From Antedon mediterranea (Eukaryota; Echinodermata; Crinoidea; Comatulida; Antedonidae), in NCBI RefSeq assembly GCF_964355755.1, contig NC_092679.1, positions 21,731,432 to 21,795,431 of the forward strand: a stretch of 64,000 nucleotides of DNA, in the 5' to 3' direction. The position numbers and the translations under genes were made by a program. The first letter of the stretch is position 1; each line of letters starts with the position of its first letter. A model generated the notes under the pieces. The model saw nothing but the letters and a program-made list of their open reading frames with translations, was not told the origin of the DNA and made no database searches. Of this stretch, positions 11,050 to 41,496 are shown one piece after another.

Positions 11050-11206
11050 CCTAGCCTACTCAGGCCTAGCCTACTCAGGCCTAGCCTACTCAGGCCTAGC
11101 CTACTCAGGCCTAGCCTACTCAGGCCTAGCCTACTCAGGCCTAGCCTACTCAGGCCTAGCCTACTCAGGCCTAGCCTACTCAGGCCTAGCCTACTCAGGC
11201 CTAGCC
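11050..11206 (+). repeat. 15-bp minisatellite (CTAGCCTACTCAGGC), about 10 copies
   Basis: Ten nearly perfect copies of a 15-bp unit containing AGGCCT. Because 15 is a multiple of three, frames on both strands stay open and give artificial repeat peptides. The array sits beside the right end of the 7739-11337 element. Confidence 0.95.
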
Positions 11207-29700: not shown

Positions 29701-32700
29701 TCACTGTAGAATGAAGGCCATTCAGAACAGTTTCAAAATTACATTGCAGTTGAGGAGATAAGAGAAGTATGTTTATAATAACAAATTTGACATTGTCATT
29801 TAGTTTATTATAAAATTAAATTGTCATTGTATTCTAGGATAAATTGTAATGTAATTAAATCTAATACATCAACATTAACTGCATCTGTGCGTTCTTTTAG
29901 AGATCAAAATGTTTTTAATATATCAGGCTAGTTAGTTAACTAATTGATAATATCCTGACTTGTTGGAACTTCAAGACAGTAGCCACAGCGAGGAAGTCAC
30001 ACTAGCCTTACAATCACATGTTGGACAGAACACAGGAAGCCTAGCCACGAGGCATATAGTATAGTGTTCTGCACTTACGTAGAAGCTAGGCTATGCTATG
30101 AGTAACATATCGCATTTAAGTAAACTACATGCCTAGAAAAACACATGCTCAGGAAGCCCAGTTACGAATACTATATGAATTAGCCCTAAAAAAAACAGGC
30201 TAGGCTGTAAACCAGAGTGCTCAAACAACTTACACACAGGAAGACAAGCTAGGCCTATAATAACATATTTCATCAATCACGCATGATTTTTAATAAACCA
30301 TTAGTTAATCGGAAATATCGTTACATTCAGCGCTATTTACGTGCACGGGGGAATACAACATCTTGCAGATTGATTCAAAAGCTGGAATTGCTAAGTTCCA
30401 CATGAGCGAGCAGGTCGCAAAGCAATCCTGCCGTTAATGAAATCTCCGGTTTGTCCCCATTAGCTTGTATATCCACACCCACACAACTCATTATGTAGTC
30501 TGCTAAGTTTGATTTCACCTATATTCATTATTCAAGACACACTTTGCAGTCCAAACATGATGTTTAGTAGTGCTGTGTACGCGTGGCAAGCAGGATGCTT
30601 CCATCAATACCGCCTCCAAACGTATGACACGCCCTGTCAATCACCTTAGATTAAATCCACTAACAGCTTCGGGATACTAGAAACTATATTGGATATAAAT
30701 AGCTCACTCTGCATAAACAATTAATTATTTAACCTATCGCTTTTTTTAATATAGCCTCAACAACAAATATCCACAGTACTGTAAATGAATTGTTTTATTT
30801 TTCCCTGCGGCATTACTTTAGATTTAATTCATAAATTCATTTCATTGATTTTTGTAGAAATGAATGGTTTAAGCAACTTGCTGTATGTTTTCTTTTATTT
30901 AATACTACTACCTCCAAATCAGATTCCTAAAAATAACCCCCTCAATTAGCGCTAAACAATGGGCCAAATACTGTTCTATTTGATATGCACTGTGTATATA
31001 CAAGTGAGAATAAATCAATCATTTTTATTCTAAAATCAATATAAAAACATACACAAATACAATACAAATAATATGGTACAGCATTATGTCCAGTTATTGG
31101 ACGGTTTGAAAGAAAGAATATCTTCTTGCATATTTAAACATTTCCAAATTTTTTAGTAAAGTTGGTGTAAAATATTCAAACCAATATAATGAACAATCTC
31201 CATTTCTAACAAGCAATCCCATTGGTCGATTCCATTAAAAAATTGCTGTTTCAACTTCTGTCGGTCCTCTGTTGATCACAATACTTCAGTCATTGAACCT
31301 GTGTATATATCTAGGTTATCTTTGTGTTTGATTGACAGTTTGTCTGATGCACACTGAGGATGGATATGTCACTCCTTCAGTCAGCGAGTCTGTTTTATAA
31401 CGTTCTGACGATTAATCTATTTCAAGAGCTGTAAAAATGAGGATTTTTTTAAACCCAAACTATACAGCCATTACTGGTTATTAACTACGATAGATTAAAG
31501 TTTGATTGAAGATAACCCAGATTGCAACGTGCCTTGTGTTACATATGACAAAAGTTTTTAGTTATTTCGTTTTACGTAAAAGCCGCCATTTTGATTTTCG
31601 AAACTAGAATGTGAACCTACTATAGATTTTCGAAACTGAATAAAAAATAATTATTATTATTTATTTGGAAGCTACATTTTTCAAACAGTGGCACAATTCT
31701 TGAATGAAAGTGTGTCCAGAGTAAGTAAAATAAAAGTAAAAGAAAGGCCTATTTACAAGAAAACTTATAAACTAATATGACATGCCACTTGTGCCAAAAT
31801 GTTTTTTTTTTATAAATATTAAGCCAAATCTCTGTCCTAGACTAACCATGGAAATATAGTATCAGAGAGGTTTGCATTCTATGCTAATTGATTTATTTGA
31901 TAAATATCGTTTTTCCCCATTTATCTTCTTACACCACTTCTATATTATTTACTTTATTCAGTAAAAACTTTACAACCAATTCATTATTAGAAATCATCGT
32001 TTAAATTGATATTTCTATTCCTACAGGATGATTCAATTGATGAATTACCAATTCCCCAAATAGCATTTGCTGGTCAACCGCACCCTGAAACACATTACAC
32101 TGGACCACCATTCCCACCAGAACCTCCACCTCAGTTGACAGAAGATCTACCATCCAGTACTATAGCATCTGATATCAAGAGAAGAGAGCTTCTTCATAAC
32201 CAAGCTGTGCAATGGTACGAAATAATGAATCTTATGAGTTGAATGGGGAAACTATTTCATAAAGATTGACGGGTCTATATAATGAGGCAGAACTGAGAAC
32301 AGTCAAACTTTCAATTAATGAGATATTATCTTCATTTAAGCGTTATTTATTTATTACCATCTTTAATGAGGGTGGCCTGTCCAGTTCCAGTAAAGGATCT
32401 TGAAAAAACATACAGGTACAAATATATAAATAAATGTCTTTCACATCTGCTATGCTCTGGCTCTGGCAAATAAAATCGCACCTAAATGTTTCATTTTCAC
32501 GACATTCCATGCGGCTATGCATGTGAAGAGAAAAAAATCAGAACTGGAGCCAGACGTAAGCAATTTAATAAACATCTGTTGTACTTTTTATAGGATCGAA
32601 CAAGAACTTATGGCACGAATGGTGAGTGACATGTACCATAGGCAAGAAGACAATGAACAATCGCAAGAGGAAGAAGACACTGCATCTGACATTTCTTCCC

Positions 32701-35700
32701 AGGATGCAATTGGTGAGTCCGTCTTCTTTATGGTGTACTGCTATGTAAAGAAAGGTTTATTTTCCATCTTCTAATTGGTCAATTATAGTGGGTAATTTGA
32801 TAATGGATTACATAAGGTATATTAAATAGACAAAAAATCTCCCTTGATATGATTTTCTGTATTTGCCAATTAGATGGTTTAAAACAGAGAAAGAGACACC
32901 TAAATCTGTTCTGGCATATCTCTTTTAGTGGATGCAATAAGTGGGGCAGCAGGACTCCAGCTTTTTGTGGATGCTAGACAACCAGTGAATCAAGAGCTAG
33001 TGTTGAACCTCATCAAAGAGGCCATTGCCGAAAGAATAGCTGCCACTCTTAGTCAGCAAGAAGTGGAGAGGTCTTCTGTGAAAGAAGTTATTCAAGTTGA
33101 TGAAGAAAGTGACATAGAACAGGTATCCATTAATCTCCAGAGTTATTTTCTAGCTATTTACTTTTTTGATAACCATTGTATTTTTGCCCATGCAAATCTT
33201 GGAATGTTATAGTCTAAACCTGCATTATATGGAATATATTTTTCAAACTTAATTTTGATATCTTTGAATTCACTGACAGATTTTGTGATTTTAACCATCT
33301 TCATTTACTATTCCTACTTCTGTATACACATATGTTATATAACACCTAAATAAATTCCTGTTATTTGATTGGACGATTGTGGTCACATGGCGTGCAATAG
33401 TACAAACTATTTTATGCATATTTATTATTTGTATATTGCAGTATAATAAAAACAGACTAAACATGTAGTAAAATAGAGCCACTTAAACCTACTCCCATCA
33501 ATTATTCAACGTAAACATTTTTTAAAATATATAATTTTCTTTGTCTGGGATTAAATATGATTTCTGTGATATACCGGTAATACAAAAATATGTTTCCTCT
33601 TTCAAGGAACCTGTAGCAGCACCAATTGCAACTCCTGAAATAACACCAGTGCACACTCCAATAGCATCACCACCAGTAAAGAGATCGTTGCCATCCACCC
33701 CAATAGCAACACCAACTCCTTCAGAAAATGAGAGTATGCAAGAAGAGCTGATAAAATCCTTGCCAAGGCAAATGACACCTTTAGAAGATGGTAGGTTGAC
33801 AGTCTTAAAGGAAAACTTTACCGAGAACCATATTTTTACAATGCATTGGGGATGTACATATAAGTTTAGAACAATTGCGAGATTTACGCTCGCCGTACTG
33901 CTGTCACCGTAATTTGCTATGACATCGAGTGTGCTTAGCAAAATCTACCTCTTAATTTTTCACTGTACCTGTCATTTCAATTGCTAATTTTACCTGCATT
34001 AGGCTTAAATTTGCCAAAATGTTTAGTCTCTTATTTTGAATATCCAGATAGGCAAAAGAAACAATAACAAAATTCAACATTTATATTTTTTACATCTCTA
34101 ATACGTTTTCAAAATTTGGTTCTCATTCAATTTGTCCTTTAACTCTTTGATCTTTATGCATTCATACTCATACATTGAGGGCAGTATTAATTGAATCTCT
34201 CCTGCAAACATGCTATTTGCTGTTTTGAGGGTGAACACATTTTCTTTGCATTCAAGACTGGAAAGAGCCATGAGTAAATGGTAGGACATCTGATAATTGT
34301 ATATACGCAAAGAGCCATGAGTAAATGGTAGGACATCTGATAATTGTATATACGCAAAGAGCCATGAGTAAATGGTAGGACATCTGATAATTGTATATAC
34401 GCAAAGAGCCATGAGTAAATGGTAGGACATCTGATAATTGTATATACGCAAAGAGCCATGAGTAAATGGTAGGACATCTGATAATTGTATATACGCAAAG
34501 AGCCATGAGTAAATGGTAGGACATCTGATAATTGTATATACGCAAAGAGCCATGAGTAAATGGTAGGACATCTGATAATTGTATATACGCAAAGAGCCAT
34601 GAGTAAATGGTAGGACATCTGATAATTGTATATACGCAAAGAGCCATGAGTAAATGGTAGGACATCTGATAATTGTATATACGCAAAGAGCCATGAGTAA
34701 ATGGTAGGACATCTGATAATTGTATATATGCAAAGAGCCATGAGTAAATGGTAGGACATCTGATAATTGTATAATTATACGCAAGTATTTGATTTCACTC
34801 TTACAGAATTATTCATCTTTATTATTATTTATTACAATTTATTATTTCATTATTTTTGCTTGGAAATTTAGAATTTCTGTTAAATTATTGATTTATTATC
34901 TATTTTTTATCGTAGATTTAGAAGTAACTATTGCTGGTCCTTTAAGCCCAGTGACAACACCAGTACAAACACCGCCGCCATCACCACCAGCGTTTCCAGC
35001 AACACCAGAAGTATCCTTACAACCTCTTGAGTCTCCAGAGGCAGAATCACCATTAAAGTCTACCATTCCAATGTCTCTCAAAGAAGCAGCAAGCCCAGAA
35101 CCTTGGACGGATGACCCTCCATTAGCAGAAGAGAAAATGCTGGAACAAATAGGAGGAATAAATCCTGATAAAAGGTATACACATTGAAAAACACATAGAA
35201 ATGTTAAAATATGTAAGAGAAGTACAAAATAAACACTTATTTAAAAACGCACAGAAAAAGTTAAAATATGTAAGAAAAGTATTAAAAAAATATGTTAAGA
35301 AATGTACTGTATATGTAATAAAAGTGGGACGAACCAATGTAAAACCAAAAAAAAAGGTATAACGCCATTTACCATATCACAGGCGTCTTGAAGTGTTTAA
35401 TCCATGCCCTCAATTTTAAGGTGTTTCTTCGGACAACCAAAATACATGTTCAATCTAAAATACTTGAAATTATATTTCAATTGTATTTTGTGCTTACAGT
35501 GCTCAAGAATTTGAAATTAGTCAAGACATCTTAGTCCCCTTAACACCGGTACCAGCAACTCCACTAAAAGAACTTCCAGACACTCCACCGGTCTATCAGT
35601 CACCAGATATGTCAGAAAGTAGCGAGTCTACTCAAGAACATACCAGCACAGAGACAACTGACAGACCCATCTCAGAAGGAGAATGGCTTACTGGTCGCAG

Positions 35701-37704
35701 CCAAGGAGAAGTGATTCCACGTATGTTGATTCATTCCTTGCATTTTAATTCAGTTTTTGTTGATATTGTGTAAAGAAATTTCTGGCAAAATAAATCAAAT
35801 TAGCCTGACCTATGTTTGAATTAAGTTGATTTTGAATCAACTATATATCTAAATTTCTTTGTCTTTTGCAGGTAAAGATCTACCATACACAAGCTCATCT
35901 GAAGACACAATATTGCAGACTGAGGAGATGGAGGATCTTACTATGGTTGGTGGATTATTTTGTCTTTGTTTTTTCTCTTTACTAGCTGATTGATTGAAAG
36001 GGATTGTGTATTATTATCAAGTACTGATTATTACTACCGTTGTTTTGTGTGTATATTTGATTTTTATATGATTAAGTATTTTCCCCAGCCCTACATCTTG
36101 TAACAAGCCATTTTAGCTTCATGATTGTTCCTTTTTTGTCTTTGAAACTTTTATTATTATTTTTTTTTTTTTTTTTGACAAATATATAATCTACATATGT
36201 GTGTATTATAACACACCTGTAAGTGTCATTTGATTGGTTAATTACGCATAACGTGCTGTTCAGTGTTAGGTCTACAAAATGGAAAACTTATATCTAATAG
36301 TGATAATTAATTAATGGTTCTAATGCATGTTCAGCTTTTTTGTACGGAAAACTCATGAAATATTCTCATTTATTTAGTCATCATTATATTATTTTGTTGT
36401 TAAACTTAGGATGAACCACCCAGTGAAGGAGAGGTGTTGTTGAAAAAAGTGCATTTCCAACAAGATCCTGTTCTTGCACTTCTGGCAAAAATAAATCAAC
36501 CAACATCAGAAGCTCACCAGTCTACAATGGATAGTGAACTCAGTATTGGTGAGGTTGCTTTTCGAAAGAGAAATCTTCCATCATCTGTAACTGGTAGGTT
36601 ACCAACGGCAAGACAGCAGTCTGACTCAGAGACTGAAGCTGGAGAAGTGAGGAAGAGGATGAATGATGGCTCTTCTCCTGGTGAGGTCATCCCAACCAGA
36701 AGACCGCTAGAAATAGATGATTTTACAATGAGAATGTCTGATTTAAAGCCTTCTAAATCTAAGGTGCTGCCATCAACTAAGATAACACAGCCAGAAGATG
36801 AACAACCACTTGATCAAGAGTCTGATGTGTCGTCTTTTTCTAAAGAGAAGCCTAGTAAGATTCCAGTAGCCAGACCCAGAGTGATCCAAGTAACCAGCAA
36901 AGCTAAGTCACCAGAACCTCCGATGACAAAAGATCAGAGAAAAAAGTCTTCCAATGTTGAAGAAATTTTTGAGAAGGAACCACCACAGCAAGTGGGTAAG
37001 TAACTAAAGTACTTAGACAATCGGACTCTGCTGTAATCTCAGCCCCTGTCTTTGTGGCAGATAAATACGTGCCGTTTTGTTGCATGGACTGAAAATGGTT
37101 GCATATGTCGTCCACACATGCAATTTAACCCAATTAATCTGCAAGACCAGGTTATTCCCACACATTTAACAAAGAATATTATATTAAATTTACTGAAAAT
37201 TAGTATAGTGTCACTATTGCTGTACTATTAATACTGATTGATGAGAATAGTAACAAATGTCATATGATCATAAATTCACAATAAAATAAAATTCTCAAAC
37301 GTTACAGATTGAAATGATCTTTCTTTTCAGCAAACTTTGGTGGAACGCAAACTTTAAGCGATTTTGGTACAAGAACTTTGACTCCAGATGCTCTAAATAT
37401 GGATGCATATCTTCAATCAGGATACTTATCACAAACTTTCAGCCAATCAGAAGCAGCCACAACTGACTTTGAACAAACAGGTAATTTGATTGGTCAGAAT
37501 ACTTTGAATAATGGAACATTAAACATGTCTATTGATTCATTGGAAATGTCCCGGGATAGATCACAAACGATGGAGAAAGGGACGAGGAAGTTTATGGTAA
37601 CGCTTCCAACTGCGCATGAGCTGGAAGCGAGCATGTCGCAAAGTGATGTAGAGGTTTACAAAGACGATGGGGATGAAATTAGTGATGTTTCTGAGATTTT
37701 TTGA
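17705..37704 (+). CDS. KIAA0586 (TALPID3): TALPID3 centrosome/cilium protein, 19 exons, 5' end missing
   Basis: Exons joined by GT-AG sites with consistent phase: 17705-17816, 18098-18178, 18985-19053, 23605-23828, 24048-24120, 24756-25022, 27216-27396, 28616-28989, 29353-29457, 29710-29766, 32027-32214, 32594-32712, 32929-33122, 33607-33790, 34916-35174, 35500-35720, 35872-35945, 36410-36995, 37331-37704. They encode 1246 residues to the stop. Segments recognisable from vertebrate TALPID3 are a coiled coil (residues 118-190), DEDYLTRVYGK with TLKSGPYLRYRSSPPRPK (about 290-325), HGQLIPMAIPL, YTGPPFPPEPPP, WIEQELMARMVSDMY (577-591), GLQLFVDARQPVNQELV (from 625), proline/threonine-rich repeats, and ISEGE/PPSEGE motifs near the C-terminus. 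The family acts at the distal centriole and is needed for ciliogenesis and Hedgehog signalling. N-terminal exons were not found and small phase-0 exons in the 4.5-kb third intron could be missed. Confidence 0.88.
19205..19440 (+). mobile_element. tRNA-derived SINE in TALPID3 intron 3
   Basis: The head GTTAGCTGAGTGGTAGACAG looks like a tRNA A-box region and CTCACTCAATTCCC sits where a B-box is expected. The body has ATGAGTAGCTGCTTAAAAAT and GATAAGGCGGCG. The boundaries are approximate. Confidence 0.45.
19990..20625 (-). mobile_element. Cluster of decayed tRNA-derived SINE heads
   Basis: On the minus strand four segments carry a B-box-like GGTTCAATCCTG or close variant preceded by TGGCACAGTAGCCTGGTGGT-type A-box sequence (around 20005-20055, 20118-20190, 20270-20325, 20535-20600). 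Spacers share AATGTTTTCCAATTCATTTC-type sequence, so the whole unit of about 150-240 bp was duplicated in tandem and then diverged. Confidence 0.5.
20690..21275 (+). repeat. Tandem repeat, unit about 123 bp, in TALPID3 intron 3
   Basis: Copies of CATAGTATGTTGGCTGACCT begin near 20876, 21008, 21131 and 21236, each followed by GGGAATGTCACATGACAG, ACTGGATTGCTTC and CCTGGGGATATGGTAATTAG. Periods are about 132, 123 and 105 bp; the last unit lacks 18 bp. An older diverged unit precedes 20876. Confidence 0.85.
21318..21480. mobile_element. Palindromic MITE (GATGTGCCC family), copy 6, intron 3
   Basis: Complete copy: AAGCTCTGTCTAGACTATCA at the left and AGTTTGATAGTGTAGACAAA at the right, with two TATTTGAG/CGGCA-type internal units. 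Confidence 0.87.
22023..22187. mobile_element. Palindromic MITE (GATGTGCCC family), copy 7, intron 3
   Basis: Complete copy in the orientation of copy 5: CCCTGTTTACACTATCAAAC on the left, AAGTTTGATAATGTAGACAG on the right. ATGGGCACATAACATTTTT shows one base change from the family. Confidence 0.87.
22745..22803 (+). repeat. GGGGACACC-family fragment
   Basis: Reads AACCTCTATTCAATGGACAC and CCCTATTAAAAAGACACTTT, a single short unit of the interspersed family in TALPID3 intron 3. Confidence 0.4.
23439..23581. mobile_element. Palindromic MITE (GATGTGCCC family), copy 8, intron 3
   Basis: Left arm AAGCTCTGTCTACATTATCA. The right arm is worn (ATATAGACAAAGA). It ends about 23 bp before TALPID3 exon 4, close enough to overlap the acceptor/branch-point region. 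Confidence 0.85.
23605..24120 (+). other. TALPID3 exons 4-5: conserved coiled coil
   Basis: Exon 4 (23605-23828) ends in phase 2 and exon 5 (24048-24120) completes the glycine codon. Together, and into exon 6 (RELSLERV), they read ALLEMVQGQRANLEANLQMV, then EEEAYTFIENL, then HIKRAVDQRIEALNKEIQ, with heptad-like leucine spacing. In vertebrate TALPID3 the corresponding coiled coil is the segment known to be essential for centrosome localisation and function. It is the strongest anchor for the gene identification. Confidence 0.8.
24140..24205 (+). mobile_element. Short GGGGACACC-family palindrome, intron 5
   Basis: AACCTCTATTAAGGGGACAC is followed after about 16 bp by its inverted copy GTGTCCCCTTAATAGAAGTG, forming a compact hairpin just downstream of TALPID3 exon 5. 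Confidence 0.65.
24327..24473. mobile_element. Palindromic MITE (GATGTGCCC family), copy 9, intron 5
   Basis: Left arm AGTTCTGTCTACACTATCAA, right arm AAACTCGTTTGATAGT truncated before the GTAGACAGAGC end. Confidence 0.82.
25300..26957 (+). mobile_element. 5'-truncated LINE in TALPID3 intron 6
   Basis: Includes the RT frame, a short 3' UTR and an AATA-repeat tail. The 5' limit is uncertain; no clean target-site duplication was found by eye. Confidence 0.75.
25317..26822 (+). CDS. Non-LTR retrotransposon reverse transcriptase (ORF2 fragment, open)
   Basis: A 501-codon open frame inside TALPID3 intron 6. Reverse transcriptase blocks in order: SFDDLRPISLTPVFAKIFEA (about 102-121), IDFTKAFDRVNH with the motif-A aspartate near residue 175, GVPQGTKLGPILFL near 232, and FVDDLTL near 263 as the catalytic box, followed by PKPAKCQVIEF. 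The C-terminal half has RPVLEYACQVWHSSL and IEKIQKRALRII, typical of the jockey/CR1-like group. No endonuclease domain precedes it, so the copy is 5'-truncated although the RT itself has no stop. The first Met is not necessarily a real start. An AATA-repeat tail follows at 26930-26955. It lies in the same orientation as the host gene. Confidence 0.88.
   Translation: MFFALVCNQLPALNINKLPAFLPASEPPVIHEWEVRKALTKVNCNKSSHPTDLPIKIIKEFAIELANPLTKLFNTCLNEGHFPRQWKTASIVPVPKQNKIRSFDDLRPISLTPVFAKIFEAFIAKWIIEDIDNKLDTKQYGNTKGSSTIHYLVDMLNYVYQSLDKPKQSVELCTIDFTKAFDRVNHTIIIDKLIKLGVRSSIVSIVCSFLCERTHTTKLGTHISSTKSISCGVPQGTKLGPILFLVLVNDAAIESCRRWKFVDDLTLGEVTKCGASSNLQSVLNSVSEWCASNDVLPKPAKCQVIEFNFLKQRQLNLVYTIDNFNLPIVSKLKLLGVIIQNDLKWGSNVNDITSRASRRLFSLCILKRSSAPVSDLVTVFTSYIRPVLEYACQVWHSSLTVQQSNLIEKIQKRALRIILSPHYVSYELALEQVGLPSLKSRREQFGKSLLESTKFRNMLPAYKSDRHSRSLRSNTSSKLDSCRCRTERYRRSTIPHLARIL
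27012..27169. mobile_element. MITE with GGTTTCCACTAG ends, copy 1
   Basis: Left end GGTTTCCACTAGAGACGCAA and right end, inverted, ending CACTAGTGGGAGACCAAGCT. The interior has GTTGACCAATGACAAGCC and TGATTGGTCTAATCAC. It lies directly behind the LINE tail and ends about 46 bp before TALPID3 exon 7. Confidence 0.7.
29195..29290 (+). mobile_element. tRNA-derived SINE fragment, intron 8
   Basis: Starts near the B-box GGGTTCAATCCTGACCTAG and continues CCATGGTTGTAACTCGCGAC, CCACTCCCTAAGCTTCAAAT. The same series occurs inverted at 59.74-59.86 kb with its head intact, so the copies belong to one family and this one is 5'-truncated. Confidence 0.55.
29770..32020. other. TALPID3 intron 10 (2.26 kb), no embedded gene seen
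   Basis: Apart from an irregular AGGAAGCCTAG/AGGCTAGGC-rich stretch at about 29.99-30.26 kb, nothing recognisable was found. Confidence 0.4.
34265..34784 (+). repeat. 47-bp minisatellite, about 11 copies, TALPID3 intron 14
   Basis: Unit GAGCCATGAGTAAATGGTAG continuing GACATCTGATAATTGTATAT and ACGCAAA, repeated with almost no differences until the last two units. 47 is not a multiple of three and the minus strand has no stop in any phase, so all three minus frames stay open across the array. These frames are repeat artefacts, not genes. Confidence 0.95.
36181..36405. other. TALPID3 intron 17
   Basis: Intron sequence preceded by a T run near 36155-36175. It ends at the acceptor AACTTAG before exon 18. 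No embedded feature. Confidence 0.4.
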
Positions 37705-38082: not shown

Positions 38083-38088
38083 AATAAA
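38083..38088 (+). terminator. Poly(A) signal AATAAA, probable TALPID3 3' end
   Basis: First AATAAA downstream of the TALPID3 stop, about 380 bp after it and about 75 bp before the palindromic array. Confidence 0.5.
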
Positions 38089-38159: not shown

Positions 38160-40392
38160 AAATCCCTTTTCAAAAATGGCCAAAATATTGACTTTTTAAA
38201 ATTCAATTATTATACATTGGCATATATACACATATATTGCGTTATCAACATCTTAGAGACACATAGTAACCAGTTATATAAAAAAATAAAAAGGTCGAAA
38301 TTTAGGTATTTTTTGAAAAAATCCCTGTACTATAGTACAGGGAAATTTTCGAAAAATGGCCGATTTTCGACCCTTTTATTTTTTGTCATAAGTGGTTACT
38401 ATTGCATAATAAACATGCGCAGAGGCGAATAATGGGTTATGCGCATGTCAATCGTGCTATAGTAACCAGTTTTGACATAAATGGTTACTATAGCATAATA
38501 AACATGCGCAGAGTCGACTAATGGGTTCTGTGCATGTTAATTGTGCTATAGTAACCAGTTTTATCGAAAAATAAAAAGGTCGAAAATTGGCCATTTTTTT
38601 GAAAAAATCCCTGTACTATAGTAAAGGGAAATTTTCGAAAAATTGCCGATTTTCGACCCTTTTATTTGTTGACATAAATGGTTACTATTGCATAATAACA
38701 TGCGCAGAGACAAATAATGGGTTATGCGCATGTCAGTTGTGCTATAGTAACCAGTTTTGACATAAATGGTTACTATAGCATAATAAACATGCGCAGAGTC
38801 GACTAATGTCGGCAATTTTTCGAAAATTTCCCTGTACTATAGTACAGGGATTTTTTCAAAAAAATGGCCAATTTTCGACCTTTTTATTTTTCGATAAAAC
38901 TGGTTACTATAGCACAATTAACATGCACAGAGACAAATAATGGGTTCTGCGCATGTCAGTTGTGCTATAGTAACCAGTTTTGACATAAATGGTTACTATA
39001 GCATAGTAAACATGCGCAGAGTCGACTAATGGGTTCTGCGCATGTCAAATGTGCTATAGTAAGCAGTTTTATCGAAAAATAAAAAGGTCGAAAAATGGCC
39101 GATTTTCAACCCTTTTATTTTTTGACATAAATGGTTACTATTGCATAATAAACATGCGCAGAGACAAATAATGGGTTCTGCGCATGTCAGTTGGTCTATA
39201 GTAACCAGTTTTGACATAAATGGTTACTATAGCATAGTAAACATGCGCAGAGTCGACTAATGGGTTCTGCGCATGTCAAATGTGCTATAGTAACCAGTTT
39301 TATTGAAAAATAAAAAGGTCGAAAATTGGCCCTTTTTTTTTAAAATCCCTGTACTATAGTACAGGGAAATTTTCGAAAAATGACCGATTTTCGACCCTTT
39401 TATTTTTTGACATAAATGGTTACTATTGCATAATAAACATACGCAGAGACGACTAATGGGTTCTGCGCATGTTAATTGTGCTATAGTAACCAGTTTTATT
39501 GAAAAATAAAAAGGTCGAAAATTGGCCATTTTAAAAAAAAAATCCCTGTACTATAGTACAGGGAAATTTTCGAAAAATGACCGATTTTCGCCCCTTTTAT
39601 TTTTTGACATAAATGGTTACTATTGCATAATAAACATACGCAGAGACGACTAATGGGTTCTGCGCATGTTAATTGTGCTATAGTAACTAGTTTTATAGAA
39701 CTATAGTACAGGGAAATTTTCGAAAAATGGCCGATTTCCGACCCTTTTTTTTTTTACATAAATGGTTACTATTGCATAACAAACATGCGCAGAGTCGACT
39801 AATAGGTTCTGCGCATGTAAATTGTGCTATAGTAACCAGTTTTATCGAAAATAAAAAGGTCGAAAATTTGCCATTTTTTTGAAAAATGGCCGATTTTCGA
39901 CCCTTTTATTTTTTGACATAAGTGGTTACTATTGCATAATAAACATGCGCAGAGGCAAATAATGGGTTATGCGCATGTTAATTGTGCAATATTAACCAGT
40001 TTTATCGAAAAATAAAAAGGTAGAAAATTGGCAATTTTTTGAAAAAATCCCTGTACTATAGTACAGGGAAATTTTCGAAAAATGGCCGATTTTCGACCCT
40101 TTTATTTTTGGACATAAATGGTTACTATAGCATAATAAACATGCGCAGAGTCGACTAATGGGTTCTGCGCATGTTATTGTGCTATAGTAACCAGTTTTAT
40201 CGAAAAAATAAAAAGGTCAGGGATTTTTTTTAAATGGCAAGAATATCGACTTTTTAAAATTCAATTATTATGCAATAATATTGGCATATATGCACATATA
40301 TTGCGTTATCAACATCTTAGAGACACATAGTAACCAGTTATATCAAAAAATAAAAGGTCGAAATTTGGGTATTTTTCGAAAACAAATCCCCG
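38160..40392. repeat. 2.2-kb array of alternating palindromes flanked by direct repeats
   Basis: Two symmetric centres alternate: the perfect 20-bp palindrome CCCTGTACTATAGTACAGGG (about six copies) and a stem pair around GTCGACTAATGGG built from CATGCGCAGA and TCTGCGCATG (about 13 GCGCAGAG boxes). They are joined by ATAAAAAGGTCGAAAATTGG and TGGTTACTATAGCATAATAA in both orientations. The outer parts (38160-38325 and 40218-40392) are direct repeats of each other with GCGTTATCAACATCTTAGAG. No protein frame is credible; the frames seen here are short and on both strands. Confidence 0.9.
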
Positions 40393-41496
40393 TTTTCATG
40401 TTAAATTCAATCAACCTAACAAGCACCACGCAGTGGCTGCACGAAGCCTACATCACTAGCATTGTCCAGCCTAGTTCATGCCCCAACTATCACAACAATC
40501 AATACTTTGCATCTGGCTACTAAAATAAGCGCAAAATTATTGATATACTATAACAGCATATAATAGTTTTGCCACTTTGATTGTAATATCAAAATCAAAA
40601 GAATGTAATGGGTGAAATGATAACAGAAAAAAAGAACAAAAACGATATAACTGTATATAGCACAATCGTGATGACGGCTTATTATAAGTTAAATAGAGTT
40701 ATAAATAATATGTTATAGTAAAATTAGATTATATAATCAGAAAAAGATTGTAGAGCGTGAAATGATAATAGAAAAAGCGAAAAATACAACGATATAATTT
40801 AGATATAGTGAGAAGTTATTATAGACCTTTTAATTAAAGTTTAATAGTTATAAATGATATAATAAGTGAAAAAATCAAATTAGTTTAGGAAAAGTTAATT
40901 ATTAAACGAATGTAAGGTGAAAAAAAAGAAAAAACACCAAAGTGATAAAATATTAAACCGTAGTGAATATTATAAGCATATTAGTAAAGGGTTAATAAAA
41001 GTATAGGTCTGAATAACAAAACAATGAAAAAACGTAAAGGCTTATGCCTACCGGAGTTCAAAATATTAACAATAGGATGAAATTGAAATATACATTCTTT
41101 AAAAAATATAATTAATTCATAACTTTAAAATTAATAATTTGTAATCTTTGAAATTATCTATAGTAGGCCTATTATATCACACTGAATAACGAGACTTTTT
41201 TATAATAAAAAGTACAAAATAGACCTACAAAATACATTTTCTCAATTTTGTGAACGATAAATATTCTTTTGCTCTCATGTAGACAAACAAACAACTGTTT
41301 TATCACATAATTATGTAGGCCTAGTATTCCCAGTAGCATTATCTAAACTGTCAAGTGATTAGGCCTATTGGGCCGTTCAATAGACGAACAAAATCCTGGT
41401 TATACGTGGGTTTTGGACACTTTGTTCTTCACATCACGTATAGTAAGGAATATTAATCAGAAACGGATTTAAGTAAACGTTTTTAATAGTGTTAAA

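Follow-up and report, generated by a model that had tools for sequence, protein, structure and literature searches.

Layout of the palindrome array beside the TALPID3-like gene

The array lies in a window of 64,000 nucleotides (the whole stretch of DNA that was analysed) on contig C10, one of the 18 contigs that make up a genome of 354 Mb. It occurs next to a TALPID3-like gene, recognised by exons at 31991 and 32904 that match Pfam PF15324, whose last open frame (37318..37704, + strand) is outside the array and is given for context only. The array begins ca. 456 bp past the stop codon, with an AATAAA motif upstream of it near 38083, in agreement with the sequence-only reading that had placed it at the 3' end of TALPID3.

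Mapping of all copies indicated that the array is real and consists of 13 dyads (A) and 6 palindromes (B) between two direct repeats (L), together occupying 38160-40394, which bears out the earlier description of two kinds of dyad between ca. 165-bp direct repeats over 2.2 kb. The left L unit (38160..38327, +), a unit of an older satellite (see below), has its edge in unique DNA at ca. 38160, and the right L unit (40220..40394, +) has the same orientation. The two are identical at 148 of 160 aligned bases (38167-38327 versus 40225-40394), with short indels in addition. The A/B core that they frame (38343..40219, +) carries 13 A dyads (CATGCGCAGA...TCTGCGCATG), all in one orientation, at 38414, 38503, 38699, 38788 (half-deleted, left arm only), 38922, 39011, 39153, 39242, 39438, 39635, 39784, 39944 and 40140; the locus can be written L> A> (12-13) L>. 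In a representative copy (40120..40193, +), arms of ca. 31 bp enclose an asymmetric loop of 14 bp, GTCGACTAATGGGT. The B palindrome, CCCTGTACTATAGTACAGGG, which has no strand of its own, is perfect at the left L-A junction (38323..38342), has one mismatch at 38609..38628, and is found again at 38830..38849, 39347..39366, 39544..39563 and 40049..40068. The A-L junction on the right is without half of the B hairpin.

Both kinds of centre are present, as first described, but they do not strictly alternate: successive A dyads are 89 bp apart if no B hairpin separates them and 196 or 197 bp apart if one does, a shortened hairpin giving 134-160 bp. Elsewhere in the genome, 172 of the 472 A-A distances in the loci read fall at 87-91 bp and 136 at 192-200 bp, a pattern that fits deletion of the hairpin at its tip or base. 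The expectation that the array would fold into many hairpins agrees with computed folding as single-stranded DNA for A (-28.9 kcal/mol, z -11.1) and for B (-35.1 kcal/mol, z -8.9), whereas the L core is unstructured in the same calculation (z -0.55). Over the loci, the two A arms differ by stable changes in their consensus (GCATAATAAACATG versus GCACAATTGACATG), which indicates that perfect pairing is not being maintained.

Other repeats were detected in the window. A 47-bp repeat in 10.9 copies (99% matches, 34262-34773) is located inside the TALPID3-like gene and seems to be intronic, and a 15-bp repeat, CCTAGCCTACTCAGG, occurs in 10.5 perfect copies at 11050-11206. A short repeat that recurs in dispersed positions, its motifs resembling CATATCACTACCATATTTGGG, is found in both orientations at ca. 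3841, 4054, 6264, 11500, 12184, 21318, 22022, 23431 and 24324, and also in three of the loci read elsewhere (L007, L017 and L018).

A scattered family of A, B, L and V units

The array is not private to the TALPID3 locus but one of hundreds of dispersed copies. The 20-bp B palindrome occurs in 627 exact copies genome-wide, in scattered arrays, and exact dyads of the A type or of the related V type (see below) number 3301, while the reversed control patterns gave none in either case, which excludes chance. Reading of ca. 60 loci on contigs C1-C11 further indicated that the A/B family is made of tandem non-coding units forming many short arrays on many chromosomes, the reading frames inside an array being those of the array repeats only. 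Complete 196-bp units are more alike within a locus (0.933) than between loci (0.885-0.907). In Crassostrea gigas, satellite DNAs likewise form many arrays scattered over the genome (PMC8268682); the A/B sequence and its carrier were matched to no named family in the sources used.

The L unit (ca. 165-185 bp, with ends ATAGTACAGGG...CCCTGTACTAT) gave at least 200 genome matches with a query of 171 bp, and pure L arrays are found elsewhere, for instance at C2:37290905-37294210 and at L066-L072. A third type of unit, V, joins an L arm to the CATGCGCAGA dyad, and all three types have the B end and one arm in common. At mixed loci the A units lie inside and the L and V units outside, L mostly having the same orientation on both flanks and A either orientation relative to L. 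In one locus of C11 (L050:2156-2440), a variant of the B palindrome, CCCTATACTATAGTACAGGT, occurs alone in 13 tandem copies at 22-bp spacing.

A transposon with fixed outer ends was considered for the array as a whole and rejected, since its outer limits vary widely in their position within the unit. For a single L or A unit taken as a MITE, array edges were likewise located at many unit positions, some of them at a B half, and the loci read contained no solo L or A unit flanked by a target duplication. The sequence-only reading had recognised no known family, and searches of Rfam and of the literature using the palindrome letters (Repbase and Dfam lying outside their scope) likewise gave no named family, with nothing relevant among the papers listed; the dispersed single copies of a named transposon, proposed as an alternative identity, were not what was encountered, the copies being arrays.

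Transposon T and the arrays that it carries

The carrier, T, is a non-coding transposon with inverted ends CTGCCC...GGGCAG, the terminal repeats reading CTGCCC(T/C)GTCATGAAAGAACGACTCAACTG at both ends, and a 4-bp target duplication. A solo copy of 1.33 kb (L049) is inserted in an unrelated satellite as CACAAAAA|T|AAAACATC, with duplication of AAAA, and the corresponding empty site is found nearby as an undisturbed satellite unit, CACAAAAACATC. Flanks were read for 40 T ends (23 left, 17 right), and ca. 32 of these (ca. 80%; ca. 19 left and ca. 13 right) are in array DNA; as some of the ends belong to the same copy, the number of T copies is nearer 33, with ca. 27 in arrays. Within arrays, nearly all ends occur at ...CCCTGTACTATA|CTGCCC or a close variant of it, which places them at the TATA in the centre of the B palindrome, and they adjoin an L unit in either orientation but hardly ever an A unit. 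Ends departing from this pattern were found at L077, L091, L108, L112 and L049, and at L090/L111 with L104/L105, which represent one duplicated site. In four copies (L113-L116), TATA is present on both sides of T and removal of the element restores an empty B palindrome; T has one orientation relative to L in L113 and L116 and the other in L114 and L115.

Several further observations concern individual T copies. One end (L110, C2:5588243-5588373) adjoins a different perfect palindrome, CCAGGGAGTTGTAAATTTTACAACTCCCTGG, a position of possible relevance to the targeting of palindromes as such. On C11 (L045/L047, 4055-4058 kb), a tandem L-T-L-T block contains two full 1.3-kb T copies that are 93% alike, and at L053 (C2:2475300-2477700) a T copy is interrupted by a stretch that resembles a tRNA and a SINE (gcgtgtggcgcagtgtgttggacgtt...). 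A 24-bp variant of B was examined as a possible T excision footprint and rejected, seven of its eight occurrences having A-type arms on both sides instead of lying at an L junction.

At ca. 20 other loci, an A/B array is found inside T or joined to part of it, in support of the earlier suggestion of a transposon-derived satellite. Five T elements were read end to end and carry from 2 to ca. 40 A units each. Four of them, of 3.4 kb (L113), 4.6 kb (L114), 5.8 kb (L115) and 0.94 kb (L116), show the order T end, A array, T end and are set in array DNA. The fifth, a 6.5-kb T-T interval on C11 (L117) that is the longest such copy read, was considered as an autonomous T and rejected, its interior being likewise an A array only; no transposase was found in the T copies read. 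On one side, the T-A junction occurs at an identical T position (1217) in 8 loci, which points to a single origin; on the other side, two main classes occur, near 517-573 and near 711-733. At nearly all loci A has a single orientation with respect to T, L008 and L113 being mixed, and four loci (L021, L031, L033 and L063) have one T end only.

T interiors are 95.6% alike between loci, whereas the L units touching T are only 78-84% alike, which argues that T moved among old L units and that the L-T-L block was not simply copied. L is thus an older dispersed satellite (ca. 81% alike between loci), and the A/B units (ca. 90%) are younger. That T ends adjoin L and hardly ever A, with L046 as an exception, would fit a spread of A subsequent to the entry of T into L arrays.

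Origin of the array at the window locus

We favour, with moderate confidence, the view that the window array is a nested repeat in which T brought an A/B array into an old L satellite and the T ends were later lost. An old dispersed L satellite would already have been present at the locus, and a non-autonomous T of cut-and-paste type, its interior turned into an A/B array and its transposase presumably supplied in trans, would have entered the palindrome at the junction of two neighbouring L units, at its central TATA. Having passed through this putative T stage, the locus may have lost the T ends by exchange between the L arms and homologous A/B arms, leaving L-A...A-L. Within the array, copy number and spacing would change through unequal exchange and through deletion of whole or partial hairpins. 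Entry of T between neighbouring L units is favoured by the relationships of the window units. Of the four complete 196-bp A/B units, which are on average 92.7% alike among themselves, each has T-borne units of L117 as its best or equal best match (95.2-95.7%), although L117 supplies 20 of the 173 units compared and so weights the test, and one window unit is equally close to a T-less locus. Each of the two L units at the window locus has its closest relative in the other (see above), the best L unit elsewhere being 85% alike. Against this route, the window locus holds no T sequence, T ends included, and the lack of a transposase in the T copies read also has to be counted. Only 5 of 20 loci picked on contig 1 retain T sequence, so that loss of T would have to be common; A units show slightly greater diversity at T-less loci than when borne by T (0.885 versus 0.907), as if A were older than T; and V, an old type of unit, already has the CATGCGCAGA dyad.

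These same points lend weight to a different history, possible though in our judgement doubtful, in which A, L and V are one old satellite family with ends in the same frame, A having been amplified in place within L arrays and T having captured an A array elsewhere at a later time. The end and arm common to the three units, the majority of T-less A arrays with their slightly greater diversity, and the left L-A junction of the window, a clean B palindrome without T remnant, all argue for this history. In contrast, A occurs in either orientation relative to L, as inserted blocks would, its divergence between loci is far smaller than that of L (90% versus ca. 81% alike), and T ends lie beside L far more often than beside A. 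It is very improbable that L-T-L is instead one composite-like element of the KolobokP type, with L as long terminal direct repeats bearing short inverted ends and T as the internal region. KolobokP elements have direct repeats of ca. 450 or 660 bp, with their own short inverted ends, around an internal part that is in fixed orientation and, in one described family, bordered by TATA; they form multimers and are characterised by a DDD/E transposase and a His-Me finger nuclease (PMC9587614). The direct L units with inverted ends on both sides, the TATA borders of T and the L-T-L-T multimer recall this organisation, but the L unit is of ca. 185 bp, and T is independently mobile, has inverted ends that belong to it alone and occurs as a solo insertion flanked by a target duplication. 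Neither a transposase nor a nuclease was seen in the copies read. KolobokP membership was rejected on the variable orientation of T relative to L and on the younger age of T.

Tandem arrays are prone to collapse, yet an assembly artefact or a collapsed longer array is extremely unlikely here, since dozens of independent loci, each in its own flanking DNA, have the same architecture; moreover, the window units differ from one another and both array ends join unique DNA. A function at this locus, as a replication-fork barrier, a source of hairpin RNA or a regulatory element of TALPID3, would draw on the strong computed hairpins and on the position just past the 3' end of the gene. We give it hardly any credence, given the many similar arrays with unrelated flanks, the hairpins that are often shortened or lost and the imperfect pairing of the A arms. 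Replication pausing or production of double-stranded RNA would be compatible with the predicted A and B hairpins, but no observation indicates a function, there is no sign of a role for TALPID3, and the array is probably of no matter to this gene.

Together with KolobokP, the closest known kind is Tetris/TIR-220 of Drosophila virilis, a non-autonomous DNA transposon whose internal tandem repeats gave rise to a satellite and also occur as free, satellite-like arrays (PMC4079207), as do those of T. Both inverted ends of Tetris consist of such repeats, as in foldback elements, whereas T has one array between two short unrelated ends; this A array is single, internal and mostly in one orientation, with a switch in L046 and L113. 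Unlike in Tetris, the A/B units are themselves palindromic and T sits in the palindrome of another satellite. A more speculative and rather improbable extension is that T targets the centre of the B palindrome, by its sequence or as a cruciform, while the array that it carries holds the same palindrome, in a self-seeding cycle of transposon and satellite; were this true, T would spread its own landing sites along with itself.

Overall, the array is an unusual example of a well-known type of junk DNA, apparently undescribed in the sense of being absent from the sources used. Many loci in one genome, found at different stages, show how T can carry a satellite array, place it at an exact palindromic position within an older satellite and then apparently lose its own ends, so that the satellite alone remains. 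The spread of scattered satellites through chromosomes is a matter of continuing debate, and the A/B family would allow this to be tested at orthologous sites in related species.
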